Assembly: GCA_003999685.1 (NCBI GenBank)
Contig: CP021225.1
Coordinates: forward strand, 1,302,001-1,366,000
DNA from: Taiwanofungus camphoratus
Taxonomy: Eukaryota; Basidiomycota; Agaricomycetes; Polyporales; Taiwanofungaceae
DNA: 64,000 bases
Direction: 5' to 3'
Below, in pieces: positions 22,254-62,806 of this stretch. Numbering within the stretch: the first letter of the stretch is position 1; every line of letters begins with the position of its first letter. The position numbers and the translations under genes are program-made. Below the pieces are notes generated by a model. It saw nothing but the letters and a program-made list of their open reading frames with translations. It searched no databases and was not told where the DNA came from.

Positions 22254-24822
22254 ATGTTTCAGCAATCAATCATTCGACGGATTAGTCCCTCTATGCAAGC
22301 GCCTTCTAGTCTTGGTACTGTCCGGGCCAGGTCCAAGAGTCCTATACTTACGCTTCCTCGCCTGCCTGTCCCCGACCTTCACCAGACACTTGAGAAATAC
22401 ATCCAGTCCTTGGAGCCTTTCTTCTTAGAGGACGAAGCTCGTGGTGGGCCGTCGTCTGAGTCCAGCCGTAGCACCCGTGTCAAGTGGGCTCAGGACTTTG
22501 AACGAGGAATCGGTCGACTTGGTCAAGAACGGCTAATTGGTCTGTCTTTTTAATCTTAAATTTCGCTGAGGAGACTCACACCTCTTCGTCGGTAAAGCTC
22601 TCGACAAGGAATCTCCAAATAACTGGCTTGACGATAATATTTGGCTCAAGAAGGCATACCACGAATGGCGGGCACCTCTCCTCATAAACTCTAACTGGTG
22701 GTTGGTACTCAACAATGACCCTAATGTGCCATCGATTGTGCTGCACGGACTCCATCATTCGAGCAGAGGTGGATACACTGATTGGCAAATAAGGAGAGCT
22801 TCATGGTTGGTGCACAGGGTTCTCGATTGGAAAACGCGTTTAGAAAGGTGAGCATAGCTCGTACTTTTACGCATGTGTCTCAAATTTATGTCACTTCTGC
22901 TGTTCGGCGGATAGACAAGAGTTATACCCTGATACTACTCGAGCAGGCACGTTTCATCCGCATGTCGTCTTCTCTCTCATTAAATTATTCTTACTCATAG
23001 GAATATGGCTTCGCGAAACGACTGCCAAAATGTTCAACATCTCTCGCTTGCCCCAACCACATTGTGATGCTTTCTCCCCGCCCCCCTACCTTGCCGCTCG
23101 AGATGCACGCACGCTTTTGCTCCTTCTTCACGACTGGTTCTACGTCGTTGAAGTACTTGATGAGGATTTAAAACCGCATCCTCCTGGGGACATCGAACGG
23201 AGGATCAGAGCAGCAGTGTTAGATGTAGAGGCGCGTTTGGACCGCGGTGAAAAGGCTGTCCCCGTGGGTGTGTTGAGCGCGGACGAGAGGGATCGTTGGG
23301 CCCAGGTAACTTGACGAAACTTAGACTGCTCGCCTAGGTCACTCACCGACTTCGTTAGAATCTGCAACATATACTCTCTCTCTCTCCCCAAAACCACGAA
23401 ATCCTCCGTAAAATCAACCATTCCATCTTCGCGTTGAGCCTGGACCACTATACCTACGTCCTCCCCGGCTCTTCGCATGCACCCTCCCCTCCGCCCGATA
23501 GCGTTCCAGAGGTCACTGCGCACCGGCATAACATTCGATCAGGAGACTCGTCCCGCCCTGCACACAACCGCTGGTTCGACAAGCCGTTCACAGTCATCGT
23601 CGAGTCCAATACACGCTCGGGAGTGCTGGGCGAGCATTCTCCTTGCGATGCGCTCGTACCGAGTATTGTTGCGGAGTATGCCGTGGTACAGGGCATCGAC
23701 GAGCTGGCCTTCGAAAAGGGCGGCCGTGACGTTGCCGGCGGCTGGGAGAGGCTCGACTGGGTCGTCGATGAGCACATTGACCGGGAATGTGTCGCTGCGG
23801 AGGAGAGGGCCAGAGCTATTGTTGCTGACTCTGATGACGGCTTCCTGTGGTACACTACCTATGGCGCAGATTGGATCAAGAACACAGGTACGTCCGACAT
23901 AATTTTCGTATAACTGACTATGTTCTCATGAACATCTCCTTCAACCGTTTACCTGCGCCGGGTTGACTATTATGTACTATCAATCGACTGAAATCTGTTC
24001 GGATTTATCATGTGCCGTTACAAACGCAGCTCGCCTCTCTCCGGACGCGTACGTCCAGATGGCTATACAGCTTGCATGGTATAGGACGCGCGGATGCTTT
24101 ACCGCAACATACGAGACAGCGCTGACGCGCCTGTTCAAAAACGGTCGTACCGAGACTATTCGTACGCTTACTGCCGATAGCCGCGCATTCGTCCTCGCCA
24201 TGGTCGACCCCCAAAGCACGGTAAGACTGACTGCTAGCTCGACGATCTCATTTAGGACTAAACCTGCTAAATTTGCACTAGGCGCACACCCGCTATTCTC
24301 TTCTTCGTCGCGCCATACAGACACATACAATTCTGACCCGTCATGCTGCTACGGGACGGGGAATCGATCGTCATTTGCTTGGGTTGCAGTTGATGCTACA
24401 AGACATTGACGCAGGAGAAGGTCAAGAGCTGTTCAAAGATGCACTATTTGCGCATAGCCAGACCTGGAAGCTGAGTACCAGCGGTTTGAGTGCAGGTTAT
24501 CAGTTTCGTGGGACAGGGTGAGCTCTTCTTGCAACTTACATTCCTTGAATTGATTTTGATGCTCTGGGCCTTGATCCAGCTTTGGGTCACCTTATAATGA
24601 TGGTTTTGGAATCAATTGTGAGTTGCTCATCATGTCTGCGTAAATACATGGTATTACAATTTATCTTTCTCAGATCTTGCTGGCCCTGATGTCATTAAAT
24701 TTGGGATTGAATCAAAACACTCTAGCTTATCAACATCTACTAAAATCTTCAAAATGGCTATTGTTGAAGCTATGCATGACATAAGATCTGTGTGTATAGC
24801 AGATGTAATTGCTCACCTATAA
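22254..24822 (+). CDS. Carnitine O-acyltransferase (carnitine acetyltransferase type)
   Basis: A multi-exon gene from ATG 22254 to TAA 24820-24822. It follows the choline/carnitine acyltransferase fold: LPRLPVPDLHQTLEKYIQSL, then SPNNWLDDNIWLKKAYHEWR, RAGIWLRETTAKMFNISRLP, HNRWFDKPFTVIV and the active-site segment GEHSPCDALVPS with the catalytic His. ARLSPDAYVQMAIQLAWYR follows, and near the C-terminus the FGIESKHSS and STSTKIF segments. The canonical EHSP.DG has Ala in place of Gly. The enzyme moves acetyl or acyl groups between CoA and carnitine in mitochondria, peroxisomes or cytosol; there is no clear C-terminal peroxisomal signal. One intron (22947-23000) appears to use a GC donor. The last two exons sit in DNA almost without CpG, unlike the rest of the gene. 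Confidence 0.92.
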
Positions 24823-26650
24823 TTGAAGTGCTTTCTAGCTAATTCAACAATTGTTCTATTTATTTGAGGGTTTTATATGTTTTTAAGAGTGTATAGGATC
24901 AACAAGACATGTACATAAAAGTGTGCCTGAAAAATCTGAATTTGATTGAAATATTGAAGAATTCAAAATTTGCCTGTTTCCAGGTGTTCAATACTCAACC
25001 AAGCCTCATCATCCCAAGCTGCAGCCATCCTGCCCACCAAGGTATCAGAAGCCACACCATATAGAAAATTCCAACTAGAACAGATGTACATCCCACACTT
25101 GCAACGTGATAACATCACATTGGTTCGACGCATATCAGTGAGAAAGCCAAGGTCTTTTGACCTTACAAGGGAGATAACAATATAGTCATCTTCATTCCCT
25201 AAAAATGAAATTAGAATAATGATGTGCTTCAGAAGCCAAAATTCATACCTTGAAAAGAGTCAATATTGAAACATTTATTCTGCCATTTAAGGCCATACTT
25301 CTTCATATCATCCTCTAGAGCACTTCTTTGTGCATCATATGGAGTGATGATTTTATAGCTTTTATCCTGATCTTGAAGCCTTGCAGCAATTTTAAGAACT
25401 GCAAGGCGTTCACATTCATTCTATCAAATACTAAGATAGTTGAAATTGAAAGCAATTGATCTTACATACCACCCAGCTTTTTTCATAATGTTTTTCACAG
25501 CCCTCAACATCAACAAAATAACAAGATGCAAGAGAGTGACCAATGAGATGATCTGGATTGCTTTGAAGTTGCCCATCATATACTTGATCAGATATAAAGT
25601 CACCAATTTGAGGTGGCATTCGATCTTTGAAGTACATAAATGTCAATCAGCAATATATAGAAAGAACATGATATACAGCACATACATTGCATATTTAAGA
25701 AAATGGCTGAGGAATGAAGGTGAGAAACCTCAAAAACACTTTTCAGTTCTTCAACTTCTTCTTGCCCATATGGAGGTACTGTAGTTCAAGTTAGCACAGT
25801 AATAATGATACAGTTATACAACTCACATTGCTTATCATCACCTATAAAGCATAGTTTTTGAATTGAAGAAATTGTAGATAATAAAGGTATGTAATCTGAC
25901 AAAGCTATTTGACTAGCTTCATCAATTACAACAGTTGTAATAGGAACAACATTGGTGAATGTCTTGATCCTTGGGTTGGCTAACATTGAGAGTGTACACA
26001 GAACCACAGGACAACCCAGAAGTTGTTCTTCTGCACCTTTGAATTCATCAGATCTAATCATGTTTTTATAAACTCTATGATATAGATGTTCATGCCTATT
26101 CAAAAACAAGAGCATGAGCATTATCACAACACTCTCAGAGCATCATTAATGACATACCAGTTTGCATGAAAATCCACAGACACAAGTAATTTCCATTCAG
26201 AAAAGCCCACACTTGCAAGTTTCTCTGCTATATTCTTCACTGCATTATTTGACTGGGCCAGAAGCCAGATACCCTTGACACCAGCAGATACTGCAGAGAC
26301 AACATATGTGGCAATGACAGTGGTCTTGCCTGTTCCAGGTGGTCCTTGAATCATAGTGATTCTAGTTGTATTTGTGTTGGACAGCATACACTCTACAGCT
26401 TGTAGCTGAGACTCATTGAGGGGATAGGTGGACAAAACAGGAGGAATGGAGGACTGTGATATAAATGTGTCTGGCCATTCAAAGTTATCTTCAGGAAACC
26501 ATATGAATTTCAAGAAGGGGTTGTTGAATAGGTCTAAAGTCCCCTGCAGCACATGCAAAAGTGTAGCTGCCTTCTGATTCTCCAGATTAGTAGGTTTGTG
26601 ACCACCAACAGTAGTCACTGAAAGAATAGTCTTGCCATCTAGACTAGTGT
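24509..26650. other. CpG-depleted block across two convergent genes
   Basis: By direct count there are only six CpG dinucleotides between 24,509 and 26,650, and none at all from 25,623 to 26,650. The flanking DNA has several per 60 bases. The block is also AT-richer. It contains the last two exons of the carnitine acyltransferase, the 140 bp spacer and the 3' two thirds of the helicase at 24,963-27,675. Reading frames, introns and motifs are intact, so it is not random decay. Confidence 0.9.
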
Positions 26651-27675
26651 CGGCCTCGATTTTGGCCGATCGTCCCAAAATGTCATCGGTCCGCCCATGC
26701 ACCGTGTATTCCATTCCGGAGGCATCTCTGACAGCCATATTTATGTTCTTAACATTGACATTAGTCTCAGAGAAAGATGAAACTTCAATCAATTTGCTCA
26801 CATGTGACTTCCGAAGTCGGGTTTGATAACGGGTGGATTCCATCTCTACACGATGATGGTGAGAATGTGATGTACTGAACTCATGGCTGGTGGACAGAGG
26901 CTTCTTCATGTCGAGTCGCTGGTCACCTCGTGCCATCTGCGCAATAACATCCAATTGCTTCAAGACCGATGTCGCGACGGTCAGTTCTAGCCAGATATTG
27001 TCTATCACATCTCTCAAGACTCACCATTTCACTGAACTTCTGTGTATTCACCCGCTCCACGCTTCGAAATCGTTCTTCCATATCTCCAAAGTGCGAGAGG
27101 TAGGTCGCGATCCATGCCCTTAGAGCAAGCGTAGTCGTTTGGCTAGGATCCCAATCCAATGTGTCCTGGAAGGCAGCACCTATGTTCTCTTTGTGAATAG
27201 GCACCTGGTCACCAACAGCGAACTCGATAGCAGAGAGCGGCGTGCTATTACTTCGCCCGGAACAAGCACTTTGGAAGTTGATTCCGTTGAGCATGCGGAT
27301 GCGGTGATCATAATACAACGAAAGCGCAAGAGGAGCCAGGTCGAACGCGACGATGATGCTGTCTGGGTGGCACAACAATTCGGACTGCAGAATTTCGCGA
27401 CCTCTTTTCGCTGTCTCCGATTTCTCCTTGCTGTGGAACTGGACAATGAGAACCTTATAATCCGTAGCGATTCCAATTGCGCTCAAACGACCAGATGGCA
27501 CATAGGCAGGGGATATGCCCACTCGACGACTTTGAGAACAATCAGAAGATGGTAAACCGATGAAGTCATGTATAATATCCACTGTTAACGAGGATTCAAG
27601 CATTATCCGCACTTGAATTGGCGGGCAGTCTTCATCTACGAAGTTCTGGTGAATCGAGCGGATTTGCGGAGCCAT
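24963..27675 (-). CDS. UPF1-like SF1 helicase, copy A
   Basis: A multi-exon gene from ATG 27675 (MAPQIRSIHQNF; another ATG at 27693) to TGA 24965-24963. The C-terminal half is a superfamily 1B helicase of the UPF1/DNA2-NAM7 group. It has a Q-motif-like NESQLQAVE, Walker A GPPGTGKTTVI, LLAQSNNAVKNIAEKL, DEASQ box (VVIDEASQIALSDY) and FIGDDKQ. Then come YRMPPQIGDFIS, IITPYDAQRSALE, DSFQGNEDDYIVISLVRS and RRTNVMLSRCK (motif VI). The N-terminal 230 residues resemble a DEDD 3'-5' exonuclease fold but lack clear catalytic acids (inference). It shares exon layout and the last residues (GKF-stop) with copy B, so they are tandem duplicates. RNA/DNA unwinding is likely; substrate unknown. Its 3' part lies in the CpG-poor block. 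Confidence 0.85.
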
Positions 27676-28727
27676 GTTGTGGTTGCAAGTCAAGAGTGTC
27701 GAGCCACCTGATGAAAGACCTTTCGGTGAGGTGGACCTGCCTCACCGTTGCAACGTGTGTGGCCAGACGGGCCATGTCAAAGAACACAGTACAAGCTGTT
27801 AATAAATAGATGGACAAAGGCATGTGACGCCACAAAACAGAGATCTATTTTTATCGGAACCAGCCAGCTGAGCCATCCATCGCCCCTGCTGTTGTCGTGT
27901 TCTTTACGACGCAAGGGTATCCTGCGATTGCTTATCAGAGCGGACGACCGAGGTCATAATATGATCCAAGGAATAAGTTCTCTCATGGAAGTTTGCGAAG
28001 CTTCAACGTTCGTTCCGTGTACCTGCATTGCGCACCCGATTATGTAGTACTTCCAGACTGCGGCAATAGTTGACATATTAAGTGATCACAAATTCAAGGC
28101 CGGATCGATCAACATAATTGTCAATGCAGCATTTGACTGTACCTTGACAATTCTCGTGCGCGACGTGCACCGCCAACGGGGGCAAGCTAGATCTTGCGAC
28201 GAGACCAAGCTTTCAGTCAGTCCCGGAGATTAATTGGTGAAACACATTGCGTGGCGATACCTTCACTGCAGTCAGGTTATGCCGTTTTGTACTTTGTGTA
28301 TCTACGTGTTTGCGCAGATGATCAGCTCGAAGACACCCTCCGAGATCATCTTGACCATATACCGTCACTGTATGAAGTTGTCAGAACTTCCATGAAGCAC
28401 GTATCGTTGATTCGACATTACCGTAGATCTGTCGGCTTGCGTAATGTTTGACCAAGCTTGCTGGGTAGGAGCAAATCATCACCAAGCTCGATCTCGTTCG
28501 CTTCTTTCACAACGACATAGGCACCGGCCCAAAGAGACGAGGCTATACCAGCCAGATGACTTCATCCGAGGGTAACAGGACATGCTGAATGTGCAGAAAG
28601 TAACGCGTAGATACACTAGTAATCGCGGGATTCAGCAATATCATTAGGAAATTCGTGCGATCATAAATCATCGCACTTGATTGACTCCTCTAGATGTCAT
28701 GCCCGTCAACTCCGTGGATCTTGAGTA
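27676..28727. other. Spacer upstream of helicase A
   Basis: About 1 kb with no supported gene. A 42-codon plus-strand frame at 27,673-27,801 contains a zinc-knuckle-like pattern (see findings) but may be chance. The rest shows only scattered short frames. Confidence 0.45.
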
Positions 28728-30813: not shown

Positions 30814-33600
30814 TCAGAATTTGCCGGAAAGTACCTTTCTCCACGTCAGCCAGCTTGCATCTCCCAACTCAGCCCCCAGTTTTCCCATCAGTGATGAAGA
30901 AGCCTTTCCCTTCAAAAAAGCACGACTAGTACATATAATCATGCCCCGTTTGCAGCGGGATAGCATGACATTGGTCCTGCGAAGATTCGCAAGGAAACCA
31001 ACCTTGTCAGAGCGAACCACGGAAATAATTATATAGTCCTCCTCATTGCCTTCCCAAGAAGGAATCAGCGTAAGCAGATAACTCATACCATGAAGGGTAA
31101 AATAGCACTACCTTGAAATGAATCAACATTGAAGCATTTGTTCTCCCATGGCAGCTTCTCGGACTTCAAGCGTGATTCCAGTAGGTTGCGCTGGGAATCG
31201 TATGGCGTGATGACACGGAATGACTTTCCCTCAGTATGAAGTTTGCGAACGATTGCAACGACAGCATTAGCTTCCTCGTAGTTCTAAGAGACAGGGTTAG
31301 TACAAACGATCTCGTTCAGTAAGAATCAACAACGTACTACCCAGCTATGACCTTCCTTCTTCTCCCTTCCGTGATGAACATCGACCAAACGACAGGACAA
31401 CGCTGAGGTGTCTGTGTGAACGGTGTTCAAACGACCACCATATACATATCGCGAGATAAAATCGCCAATAGGCACCGGCATCCGATCTGCGAGCCAATGA
31501 GATTGATAAGGTCGAGACCCAAGAATTTGACAGGATACATACATTGAGTGTCCAAGAACACTGCGTTTTTCCTTAAATGAGCGAGTTCAAATATACTTCG
31601 AAGGTCACCAAGGTCGTCTTGGCCGTATGGTGCCACTGTCGAAGCAGAGGCTGTTAGAAGATTGGAAAACATATATTGCACGCAGCGCACGTTGCTTGTT
31701 ATCTCCAATGAATGCCAGCTTTCGTATATTCTTCCCGAATTTGCTCAGCAAAGGCAGATAGTCGCCAAGCTCAATCTGACTGGCTTCGTCCACAATGACT
31801 GTCTTTATGGGGACGAGTCGACTGAATCCGGAAGCCATCAAACGAGGATGGGAGAGCATGCTCAACGTGCACAGAATTACCCGAGAACCCAACAGTAATC
31901 GCGACGTGCCCACTAAATTGTCGGCAAACTCGTCGGACCGTATAACGTTGGTCTCAATGCTCTCGTACAAGTGTTCGTGCCTTCCCATTGCAAAGAAAGT
32001 TGAGTAATGTGATAGCCGGTTCAAATTATATACGTTTCTTACCAGTCAAAATGGAAGTCCTTGGAGACGAGAAGCTTAAAGTCCAGAAACTCGAGAGCGG
32101 CGAGCTTCTCAGCGATATTCTTCACAGCTACATTGGATTGCGCCACCAGCCAGATACCGTAATCTTTCGCACCCGACGCGACGATACTGGTCACACATGC
32201 TGCGATGACTGTGGTCTTACCGGTCCCGGGAGGACCATGTACGAGACAGACTTGATCATCTTCTCGAGTAGACAAGATCCGACGCACCGCTGCGGCTTGA
32301 GAGTCGTTCAACGGCCGAGCTGGGAAGTGAATTTCGGGCGCAACATCCCGTAGGCCACTTCGTCGCGCTTTGGCTTGGGACGAAGCGCTGATGTTTGATG
32401 GAAAGAATATCCTTCGAACGATAGGCTGCTCGAGCAACTGAGACTTGCACTGCAGCTCACATAGCACGATATCAGTACGCTCCTCTTCTGCAGTAGTGGG
32501 CTCTTCTCGTCCAATAGTATAAACATTGCAAATCTTGCTTGCAGTAGAGATAGAACCGTCCACAGAAATTGTGGCGGACCTGCCATTCACACGGGCAGTG
32601 TGTCCTTGCGTAGTCAAGGTACGTCCCTTCGAGTTTGAGGTCTCCAAGACTACTTTCTGGATAGCATATATAGGTATTTATGATCAAGACCGCTAATATT
32701 AGACAAATCCTACCTGACTGGTAGAAGTCCTGAGACGGGTCTTGAAGCGGGTGAGGCTTACATTGAGTGCTCCGCTCTTCTGGCTAAACTGTGCGCTGAC
32801 ATCGTTCCTAACTTTTGTTGGCTTCAATGCATACAGGCGATCTGCATCGCGAATGAATTTAGCGAGGAGATCAAGCCGCTACGTAACTTGGTCAGTATGA
32901 GGCAGTGGTCTGGCACACGAGAGCATACCTGCTTATCAAATGTCTCGGTGTTGATGGCAGGTACCGCTAAAAGGCCTCTGGCCAAAGAGGCAATCGAGCT
33001 CACTTGGCAGGAAGCCCAAGCGCGAAGAGATACGTTGCGTGCATCTGCAACTTCAGACGCTTGACCTTGAAATGTTTCGATCACTATGTCCTTATTTAAC
33101 TGGAGCTCGCCACCCAGAACCGAAAGCAAGGTGCTTGCAGTATGTCGGCCAGTCGTCTTGGGGAGTATAGACTGCAAGTCGATGGCCTGGATGATTGGCA
33201 GACTATGATCTAAGTGCAGAGCTGTAGCCAGGCGGTGCATATCGAAGGCAAGTTTGCAATACTCCGAGTCACGAAGGAATTTATCGAGGAGGATTTCGCG
33301 ACCCTTTGATAGCGGCTGGCTGCTGCCCTTCCTTCCCCTCTTCGATCTGGACTCGGATTTCTTTGTGGGTATGGTCAATCGTATATGCAAGACACGGGAG
33401 GGCGTCGAGAAGGCAATGACGACCAGAACACCTCTAGCACCATAAACCGGAGCTACGCCAATGACCCCCGCCACAGCTGTTTGCAGGAAGTCGGCCGCCA
33501 TTCGCTCGGTCAGGGCTGTCTCGTTCAGCTGCATAACATGCACCGGCGCATGATGCGCCTTGAAGATCGGCTGATGCAAGATGAAAGTCTGTTCCGCCAT
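30814..33600 (-). CDS. UPF1-like SF1 helicase, copy B
   Basis: Read from ATG 33600 (MAEQTFILHQPIFKAHH) to the stop at 30816-30814. Residues 1-225 form the exonuclease-like N-terminal region (VIGVAPVYGARGVLVVIAF, CKLAFDMHRLATALHLDH). A linker follows (RLDLLAKFIRDADRLYALKP, TRFKTRLRTSTSQ). The helicase core has LNDSQAAAVRRIL, GPPGTGKTTVIA, WLVAQSNVAVKNIAEKL, VIVDEASQIELGDYLPLL, AFIGDNKQ and PVPIGDFISRYVYGGRL. Its C-terminal part has VDSFQ joined to GNEEDYIIISVVRSD and RRTNVMLSRCKRG. All SF1B motifs are present, so it looks active as an ATPase. Base composition is ordinary, unlike copy A. It ends GKF-stop like copy A. Role unknown; UPF1 relatives act in RNA decay, translation termination or genome protection. 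Confidence 0.87.
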
Positions 33601-52302: not shown

Positions 52303-53869
52303 CTACACGGCCAGAACTCTGCGGCATGGAAACGGGGCCTCAGAGTGAGGTCCCCGTAACGGCCCATAGCCGTTATGATTACTACCCTTTTCGTCCTATG
52401 ATTTTACAGTAATTTTGTAAATCCCTTATGTAGTGCTTGAAATTATGGTTGATGTAACATGTAAACAGGCCGGTTACTTCCCGTATGCAGCCCCGTTTCG
52501 GGGCAGGCAGGCAGGCCCGAAACCAGCATCTGGTTGGCATACCGTTATGGCACTGCAGCGTCCCGGAAATCGACCGAGGGTCGAGGCAGCTACAACATTA
52601 TTTACTACCAATATACCGGCACTGGTGCTCTTTCTCGTGACATTACAGGCTTTTTCCAGGGTCAGTGCAGCATTGGAAGCACAACAGTAGCATCCAGTAG
52701 ATGAAATTAACATATTATGGCATGAAACAACAGACAGTAATTATTATACAGGAATGATGTTCGACATGCTGCCACTGGCAGTGGATGAGCTCAGCCATGA
52801 AGATAGGGATTGACCACCTGAAATGGTCTTAAATTGCGACCTGCCAACCCACTGTCAACACCTGGCTCTCTGCATCATTCAACGCAGAATAGTGTTCTGG
52901 AAAATTTCAGTAAAGAACCTAAATAATGGTGTGTCAGTTGAATGCCATCGAAGCAGAGACTGGACGTACATTTTGAGATAATCTTCCTCCCGTGTTAGTC
53001 CATGAGCGTGACCATCCTTGTGCGTTGAGTAGTAAGTAAGTCAAAACACTAGTACTAGATGAAGCTTCAAAGGATGTTCAAGAGAGATTAGAAGGAATGG
53101 ATAGCATCAACCTGCCAGAGGTCAGAGCAAGAGATTATGCTTGGGATGTATGGACTGAATTGCGACAGAATTCCAGACATCGCTGTTGCGCTGCTGTCAC
53201 GGTGAACTTGAATCAAACAAGTGCTTGTATTTGTGCATGTTTGTTTTAGTGGCTGCTCACCAGTAACGGAAAGACTGAAGTTCACGACAAGACTTTTGAT
53301 TTTATTACTACTGTACAAATTGGAAAATAAATTCATGCCATGGAGATCACATTTGTTTCTGCTCACTCTGACTTCCCCACTGGCAAATGGCCTGTACTAT
53401 CAACAAATATAACAAAAGCCGTTACTGCCTACTTTATTATGAGATTATTACAATTTATGTTGTGCCACGGTGCGACGAATGGTGCTAGCTTTTCCGTTAC
53501 AATGAGCTGCAGATCTCATGTAACCCCCGGGCTGAAGCGGGCAGCAGTGAGGGCTGATTGGGGGCCATACAAGCACTGCTTCGGTATTGCACGCTCAGCA
53601 TGTGATGAATGCCGTGGCTGCAGCAGCCATGCCAGGCTGAAGTATCTGGGCGCATTCGCCTTCTCACGGCCTGGAATCGACCCGTTCAACGCCCCGAAAC
53701 CACACTGGAGATACGGGGCCGTTCCGATGACTCTGACCTGGCCCGATACCGGAGCGTGTCCAAATTACAGACACGGGACTTATGTGGGCCCGATTCACGC
53801 CACCATTTTGACCGTTCCCACCCTTTTCGTCCTATGATTTTCCGGTACCAGCCCGTTTTGGCCGTGTAG
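52303..53869. mobile_element. Decayed DNA-transposon-like element with inverted ends
   Basis: The left end CTACACGGCCAGAAC (52303-52317) and the right end GTTTTGGCCGTGTAG (53855-53869) are reverse complements at 14 of 15 positions. A 22 bp direct copy (ACCCTTTTCGTCCTATGATT and two more T) occurs at 52384-52405 and 53820-53841, so the ends may be nested or rearranged. Outer parts are GC-rich; the middle (about 52,690-53,420) is AT-rich and fairly CpG-poor. A short protein-like stretch (KDVQERLEGMDSINLPEVRA) is read near 53,060-53,130 but is not recognised. I see no clear target-site duplication, so the family is unknown. Confidence 0.5.
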
Positions 53870-60423: not shown

Positions 60424-62806
60424 TAATGCTCCTTGCACCGACTTTCACGTCGTGTCCAATATCATAGTTGAGGTCTCCATAACGCTGTACATACCAAGTC
60501 GGGCCAACTTGAAAGCTGCATACCTCGCAAGGTACGTTCTACACATGGTCGCCGAGATATCGAGATCTGCGGAGCAGTCTAGCTTCGGCAAAAATGCTGC
60601 TCGCACCATCCGTGAGAGCAAGTGATAGCCTGATCTTCGCTGTCTTACCATCTTCGGACGCGGAAGAATGACAATCCCCAGACTAATCCTGAACCTGTGT
60701 AGGCCGACGCGAAGATGAATGCCAAAGAGGGAATGTAACTGCTTCAACTCAAATCGTATAAGATCTTCCGACTTGGAACATTCGCGGTGAGAGATGCCAC
60801 ACATCAGAGAGGAAGATTTAGCCTTCAGCAAATGCCATTGGCAGCTTGCGATGAACTGTAGTCCGTCTACCGGTTTCAAAGCTCGATGGTATTGTGGTCA
60901 GTGATTTACTAAAAAAATGACAGACGTATTCCCCATGATTGACCGTCCAAATATCGGCATTGCTTGGCATGCAATCACCTAGCCGATCACACACTGTAGG
61001 ACCTAGATACAGCCGCGTCCGAATCGTCGCACAGCAGCGTGCTATCCTTCGGCCGTCGTGGCTGCCGATTGCTAGGGAGGCATGGGGATTTTGTACTTGC
61101 TAAAATTGCGGACATGGCCTATACTTTTGCAACCAGCCATAACTGTGGCACCCAGCTGTATGAGTCAGTATAATAACCAGTAACTACCGAGACTTCGCAG
61201 ATAATTACTCAGGGTTGTAAGAGTCAAACTTGACCCCTTGTCTTTCGTCGGTGTCATGACCTCAAATGAGTCAAGCTGCGAGGTCAAATGTAACCAAGCA
61301 CGTTGGAGCCCGTGCGAAGGTCATGACCCTTAATTTTTTGGCTTGACGGGGTCTTTTTTTTTTATTTTTTATTTAAATTCACCGGGTTTATACTCCGTAC
61401 ACCGTGGTACATGTAGAGTTAGGGATAGTAAGTAGGCTCCGCGCCCCCATGAGCGGTGCACCGTTATCGATCGGTGCCCTCGTTACGTGGCGTGGGCAGG
61501 AAATCCACACGCTCGGAAGGGTTGCCCGGCTCGGTTGTCCGTACCGACAGCACCCGTAAGGGACTGAGTTTGCCCTACTGGTTTCGGGCCTCAGTCATCA
61601 AGTGGGCGGGAAGAGTCATCGCCGGCTCTCGGTGTCGCTATTCTCCCCGCCTCATGGGTGACCCAATTAGGGATGGTCACTGGCACCCAAATAAACTTCC
61701 CACGCGGATTCCTCCCGTGTTCCATGCAGCCCGTTGAAGGAGGCCCGCTTACCCAACGACTGACTGAAGTTCCCCCCCTTCCCCTCCCAGCCTGGCTCAG
61801 AAATCCTCATACCGACAGGACCAGTATATCGGCCCACCCCTTCGACCCCGATCCCCTGGCAACTTGCCCTAACTCCCGTAATGATGAACCATGCACGGAG
61901 GCCCTCTTTTTGGTGCATCTTGCATGGGTGTTGAGTGTTGTCGAGTAGTGATTGCTCCCCTCCCCTTCTACAAGCGACCGTGTTCATCAACAATTGGATA
62001 AGTTTGGGGCTGACCACATTTAAGGTCAAGAGGATTTGGAGGCTGTCGCTTCCGAGTGACAGGTGGCAGATAAGGGAGAGAAGAATGTCGCCGTAGACAG
62101 TGTAGGACAGCGACGATTCTATAATCGAGTTAATCGATGCTCAGAAAGAGAATGTGGGGGTCAAGTTGGATGATCTTGACACAAGAATGAGTGGTATTAA
62201 GAGAGGGATGGTAGAGTAAAGCCTCGGTGAGCGACAAGCACCCAAGGAGATGGTGGTGGTTCGAGGTCAAGAAGCGCGTGCTTGACGGGGTCATGACCCG
62301 TCAACCACAACAATGCAATTACTTGCTTGTGCGAGATGTGTCTATCGCTATCTTGTTGAAAAGCTGCTAGCACAATGGCAATTGCCACCCCTGGCAGAAT
62401 TTGGCAGAAATGTCTGTGAGCTTTCTGCATAGCTAAAGTAAACAAGCTATGCCACATTGTATTGTTACCAGCAGATACTCGGACTACGCTGCCACCTCAG
62501 TGACTGTGCTTGTTTGCAATCTTGAAGTAATTCAGTGAGTAAAACATTGACCCATATTTAGAAAGGGATCATGGGCAAATTGCCAAGGATGGTAATTTAT
62601 CGCAAGCGAGGCCGAAAAGCTGAGAAAAGCAGTGCCTAAGGCACCGAGCGCCCCACAAAGCAAAGCTTGAGGCACCAAAACAGCCACAAAACACTCTGGA
62701 CCAAAATCAGAAATTTGGGTATTCTCAGGATCAATTGTTTACACATCTGCAGATCATTGCAGCACACTCGAATTTTACAGGTCAAGGCAGACTTCCAGAT
62801 AGAGGA

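Follow-up and report, generated by a model that had tools for sequence, protein, structure and literature searches.

The window, by which we mean the whole 64-kb stretch of DNA analysed here (C6:1302001-1366000 of a 33.2-Mb genome in 15 contigs), carries on its minus strand a gene for a UPF1/SEN1-like SF1 helicase (helicase A, window positions 24963-27675), which matches Pfam AAA_11/AAA_12 and PDB chains of SEN1-like, UPF1, NAM7 and SEN1 proteins. The splice model comprises seven exons (27675-27025, 26936-26158, 26095-25827, 25778-25686, 25624-25470, 25420-25249 and 25198-24963) separated by GT-AG introns and encodes 784 residues. For introns 1, 4 and 5 there were two, four and two in-frame options, respectively, from which we picked by hand, for intron 4 with regard to the motif QYRMPP. 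Helicase A converges, at a distance of 140 bp, with a carnitine/choline acyltransferase gene on the plus strand, whose PF00755 matches begin near 22362 and which was modelled over its end alone (24282-24822, the second-last exon being one of two in-frame choices). Intact frames had been proposed by an earlier, sequence-only reading of this DNA; indeed, helicase A contains no stop and the modelled acyltransferase end is open. A paralogue with normal CpG content, helicase B, aligns along the length of helicase A at 30817-33600 on the minus strand, a range taken from the alignment and not from a gene model. Between the two helicases a segment at 28430-28632 on the minus strand matches helicase B by tblastx and is possibly the relic of a third tandem helicase copy.

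The region in which the two genes converge is covered by a CpG desert (24508-26650, 2,143 bp, unstranded). Direct counting bore out the six CpG claimed for positions 24509-26650 (at 24639, 25105, 25126, 25129, 25407 and 25621) as well as the CpG-free run of 1,028 bases at its right end (25623-26650). The observed/expected ratio (o/e) of CpG is 0.08 in this segment versus 0.94 across the window, GC is 0.373 versus 0.506, and the o/e values of TpG and CpA are 1.45 and 1.52, compared to 1.14 for both in the window. When the desert's own bases were shuffled 20,000 times, 74.6 ± 7.1 CpG were obtained and never fewer than 48. Thus, a GC content of 37% fails to account for the desert, and low GC was ruled out as its cause. 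At desert composition, a CpG gap of 1,029 bases has a probability of about 1e-16 per start, and the four largest distances between CpGs in the window (1030, 466, 278 and 214) all lie within the desert, the next largest (140) lying outside. The 528 non-coding bases of the desert hold one CpG versus 13.5 expected, with TpG/CpA values of 1.52/1.48; this sole non-coding CpG (24639-24640, plus strand) is placed by the splice model in the last acyltransferase intron. Two milder dips in CpG were noted elsewhere in the window (52636-53420, o/e 0.43; 62346-62769, o/e 0.38), in neither of which could coding content be clearly made out by eye.

With CpG rates fixed for the desert and for its surroundings, a change-point model placed the left edge at 24454-24582 and the right edge at 26584-26650 (2.5-97.5% limits). 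The right edge was correctly assigned by the sequence-only reading to the inside of one helicase A exon, exon 2 (26936-26158). The left edge had been set at an acyltransferase exon end at 24508, which is nearly right: the exon ends at 24517, and 24507 is the position of the last CpG. That the desert covers the 3′ halves of both genes is true of helicase A, where it begins 1,025 bp downstream of the start codon, near codon 313 of 784, takes in roughly the final 60% of the codons and continues beyond the gene end into the convergent neighbour. It does not apply to the acyltransferase, of which only the last two short exons (24580-24617 and 24674-24822, plus strand, splice model with PF00755) are included, both of them CpG-free. 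Neither self-comparison nor DNA searches of the genome revealed a repeat, TIR or LTR in the desert or at its edges. A transposon insertion beneath the desert was ruled out by the continuous exons, the single DNA match and the absence of terminal repeats.

The loss was examined codon by codon in helicase A, with 472 codons inside the desert (stop included) and 313 outside, using Fisher tests. Pyrimidine third positions followed by G are occupied by C in 0/82 cases inside and in 20/53 cases outside (p = 5e-10), and purine third positions preceded by C are occupied by G in 0/39 versus 18/33 cases (p = 3e-8). In other contexts the shift is mild: where the next base is not G, C is found at 71 of 184 pyrimidine third positions inside versus 65 of 120 outside (p = 0.009), and G at 59 of 138 versus 49 of 90 purine third positions unable to form CpG (p = 0.1). 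The loss in helicase A is therefore CpG-specific. Exon 2, which crosses the right edge, has 15 CpG outside the desert and none inside, whereas its non-CpG third positions have a GC of 42/72 (0.58) outside and 65/121 (0.54) inside. Since the other third positions are little changed, the edge is visible there in CpG alone.

All five coding CpGs surviving in the desert occupy positions 1-2 of arginine codons on the minus strand, as assigned by the helicase A model and a PDB alignment. They belong to Arg599 of the QYRM motif (25621-25622), the codon of which is identical under all four options for intron 4, to Arg654 (25407-25408), and to Arg730, Arg731 and Arg738 within RRTNVMLSR (25105-25130). 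The best PDB match, a SEN1-like structure, has arginine opposite four of the five (599, 730, 731 and 738), and no arginine opposite 654. Either transition at these five CpGs alters the residue, so their persistence would reflect purifying selection that preserves the protein. The other arginines in the desert are encoded by AGR; CGN and AGR codons stand at 5:8 inside and 20:3 outside the desert (p = 0.006). In the motif RCKxGM, Cys741 of helicase A (TGT, 25095-25097) stands opposite an arginine of helicase B (CGG), a difference of the kind that a tolerated change would produce if it went from CGN to TGN.

Helicase B had been put forward as a built-in control with normal CpG, and this was borne out by a tblastn alignment. 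In the range that corresponds to the desert, 35 codons of helicase B start with CG versus five of helicase A, and outside this range 16 versus 20; GC3 of B and A is 0.51 and 0.32 in the desert range and 0.56 and 0.53 outside. The helicase B counts are approximate, as the alignment takes in some codons from its introns. The two proteins are 49% identical inside the desert, in the portion containing the helicase core, and 26% identical outside. The normal CpG content of helicase B also led us to reject a homology-dependent hit involving the two paralogues.

The uniqueness implied by the sequence-only reading was not sustained, as deserts recur in the genome in repeats and in two DNMT1-type genes. 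Twenty 10-kb stretches of C6, including the two that directly flank the window, were segmented, and deserts appeared in three (L007 6933-8707, L022 1728-3049 and L026 1100-1979), and several further stretches showed weaker 400-base dips (o/e 0.39-0.5). Two of the three deserts are repeat-like. The L026 desert has 39-bp inverted repeats (92%) close to its ends. In the L022 desert the first 407 bases of the query are a repeat, with 52 matches listed and 606 initial candidates, and the remaining desert matched little. This repeat of about 400 bp (L022 1900-2306) had listed matches on 14 contigs, and 14 of the 16 rows examined, two of these 16 representing the same copy, had an o/e of less than 0.5. 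The L007 desert looked TIR-like by eye, but self-comparison of it gave no match. The lowest overall o/e among the 20 stretches (0.72, at a GC of 0.55) was that of L025 (C6:1800001-1810000).

Of 13 further genes targeted, not counting the window, which was selected for having a desert, two contain one, and both are DNMT1-type. No desert was found in the four loci of helicase relatives (among them helicase B, L003), in two other PF00145 loci (L037 and L038), in the three RdRP loci fetched out of about six gene places in the genome, or in the two Piwi loci fetched from a larger number of places; all 11 loci represent partial genes that may hold a desert elsewhere. A general desert mark on silencing genes was rejected on the basis of the fetched RdRP, Piwi, L037 and L038 loci, each comprising the match and about 1.5 kb on each side.

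PF00145 had five matches above the cut-off in the genome, which we read as four genes. D1 (L042 and L039, C3 around 3,120,900-3,123,500) combines a DNA_methylase match with a BAH domain, and D2 (L043 and L041, C3 around 1,505,200-1,507,400) combines a DNA_methylase match with a DNMT1-RFD domain; scans of two D1 pieces gave no RFD match, and scans of D2 pieces gave no BAH match. Both deserts are some 2.2-2.5 kb long and are flanked by normal CpG within the fetched stretch, and coding frames are kept in the pieces read. The edges look less sharp than those of the window's desert, and five CpGs within about 110 bp towards the right part of the D2 desert make it less clean. When the tblastx pieces were set side by side by hand, the two deserts overlapped with an offset of about 500-600 bp.

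For D1 and D2 the codon counts were restricted to exon cores that cover part of each gene and were selected by hand from open frames and a tblastx comparison of D1 with D2. At CpG-forming third positions C is present in 0/96 cases in the D1 desert versus 37/81 outside (p = 8e-16) and in 3/81 versus 31/71 cases in D2 (p = 2e-9). Third-position G after C showed the same pattern (1/47 versus 16/25 in D1, 1/40 versus 14/45 in D2). At other pyrimidine third positions C did not drop in D1 (102/196 in the desert, 54/117 outside), and in D2 it was found in 71/173 versus 72/143 cases (p = 0.11). Arginine CGN codons account for seven of the eight coding CpGs left in D1 and for nine of 13 in D2, and the CGN:AGR ratios in the desert and outside are 7:13 and 16:4 for D1 (p = 0.01) and 9:7 and 27:8 for D2 (p = 0.19). 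Both genic deserts thus carry the same signature of CpG loss as helicase A.

We consider it probable that CpG methylation, confined to a domain with sharp edges, has long covered the desert, and that methylated CpG decayed there under purifying selection. In the germ line such a domain would have been seated over the stretch at 24.5-26.6 kb, and deamination of 5-methylcytosine would have converted CpG to TpG or CpA wherever this was tolerated, i.e. at silent codon positions, in introns and in the short intergenic gap. Purifying selection would meanwhile have maintained the proteins, with coding CpGs surviving at arginine codons. The agent would be 5-methylcytosine, maintained over this time by the DNMT1-type enzymes of the genome and perhaps by others. 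The absence of repeats from the desert and its edges suggests that the domain was laid over the genes and did not spread from a transposon.

Decay at silent sites under selection was one of two explanations offered by the sequence-only reading, and it is well supported by the codon-context counts and the identity of the surviving CpGs. CpG-specific depletion together with TpG/CpA excess, as expected from the decay of methylated CpG, is found in the desert, and cytosine methyltransferases are present in the genome (the five PF00145 matches). Against this explanation, helicase A also shows a mild drop of C at third positions that cannot form CpG (p = 0.009), which pure decay of methylated CpG does not predict, and the arginine-codon shift reaches significance in helicase A and in D1 but not in D2. 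Nevertheless, from the sequence patterns described, slow decay of methylated CpG is a closer fit than either a donor tract or a burst of repeat-induced point mutation (RIP).

The main rival, which we regard as unlikely, is a RIP-like or MIP-like process, in which a past duplication of the segment was followed by methylation and CpG mutation of both copies and by loss of the partner. Loss of such a duplicate would explain edges that are sharp yet bear no relation to gene ends, and copies of a repeat family in this genome are CpG-depleted. RIP produces C-to-T transitions in sharply bounded segments as well, but it acts on at least two target copies, whereas DNA searches with E up to 10 returned the helicase desert as a single match (one initial candidate) and no second copy, although a lost or strongly decayed one could escape them; moreover, the paralogue helicase B is CpG-normal. 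A mutational burst would also bring nonsense mutations and strike codons indiscriminately, those for arginine included, while helicase A is open throughout and its coding survivors, all of them arginine codons, are filtered by selection.

Replacement of the segment by a CpG-poor donor allele or lineage, through introgression or gene conversion, was the second explanation of the sequence-only reading, and we think it improbable. It would account for the sharp edges and for the fall of overall GC from about 0.5 to 0.37, and the somewhat lower non-CpG third-position C over the helicase desert as a whole points in the same direction. However, an introgressed tract should show a shift in non-CpG composition at its edge, and exon 2 shows next to none, although its CpG disappears on the inner side. 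Furthermore, the donor itself would need an identical, selection-filtered desert, which merely displaces the problem. Selection or a chromatin or sequence preference against CpG, acting independently of methylation, is very unlikely, as the depletion extends over coding and intronic sequence of two genes and over the gap between them, and is accompanied by TpG/CpA excess. An assembly join or contamination can practically be dismissed, because one open exon spans the right edge without a frame break, and the acyltransferase can be read across the left edge through two introns.

CpG methylation in fungi is generally regarded as a mark of transposons, and gene-body CpG methylation leaves genes with low CpG o/e in invertebrates and plants. 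The desert shares CpG loss and TpG/CpA excess with the decay of methylated basidiomycete transposons, and repeat-like deserts occur in this genome too, but it is single-copy by our searches, coding, spliced, under selection and free of repeats at its edges. Like genes with body methylation in invertebrates and plants it shows CpG decay in selected sequence, starting about 1 kb past the helicase A start codon; unlike them, it has one edge within an exon and extends into the convergent neighbour, and few of the genes examined are affected.

According to the available excerpts of the papers cited here, fungal methylation resides mainly in repeats, and gene-body methylation is absent from most fungi and reported in two ascomycetes (PMC7862722). 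Among basidiomycetes, gene-body CpG methylation is already published for wheat stripe rust, where it is tied to the lower-expressed allele (PMC12129025), genic differentially methylated regions are described in Pleurotus (PMC5974365), and exons of Laccaria and Coprinopsis are generally poor in oxidised 5mC (PMC8889193). CpG-biased hypermutation of genes in Rhizoctonia solani AG8 (PMC4014442) resembles the present case in that an agaricomycete shows C-to-T changes at CpG within coding genes; these changes are, however, dispersed across genes and repeats, whereas here they are nearly saturated within a bounded 2.1-kb desert. A maintained methylation domain would fit the biology of basidiomycete DNMT1-RFD and DNMT5 as reviewed in PMC13297926. 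The excerpts of these papers contain no account of intact genes with bounded CpG deserts, and none for fungal genes was found in the titles and abstract openings listed by full-text searches of an open-licence library.

A nearly saturated record of CpG decay inside intact, selected genes would make the history of methylation readable from the sequence alone. It would provide a natural experiment for separating CpG decay from protein constraint codon by codon, and would let one ask how long a maintained methylation domain lasts with a fixed boundary. As a tentative and rather doubtful generalisation, some single-copy fungal genes may carry heritable, sharply bounded methylated body domains old enough to have erased nearly all tolerated CpGs, with DNMT1-type genes among the targets, and the methylation system may tune its own genes as a sensor or by feedback. 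Feedback on the DNMT1-type genes would be a bold reading of these patterns, and the deserts in two such genes make it directly testable.
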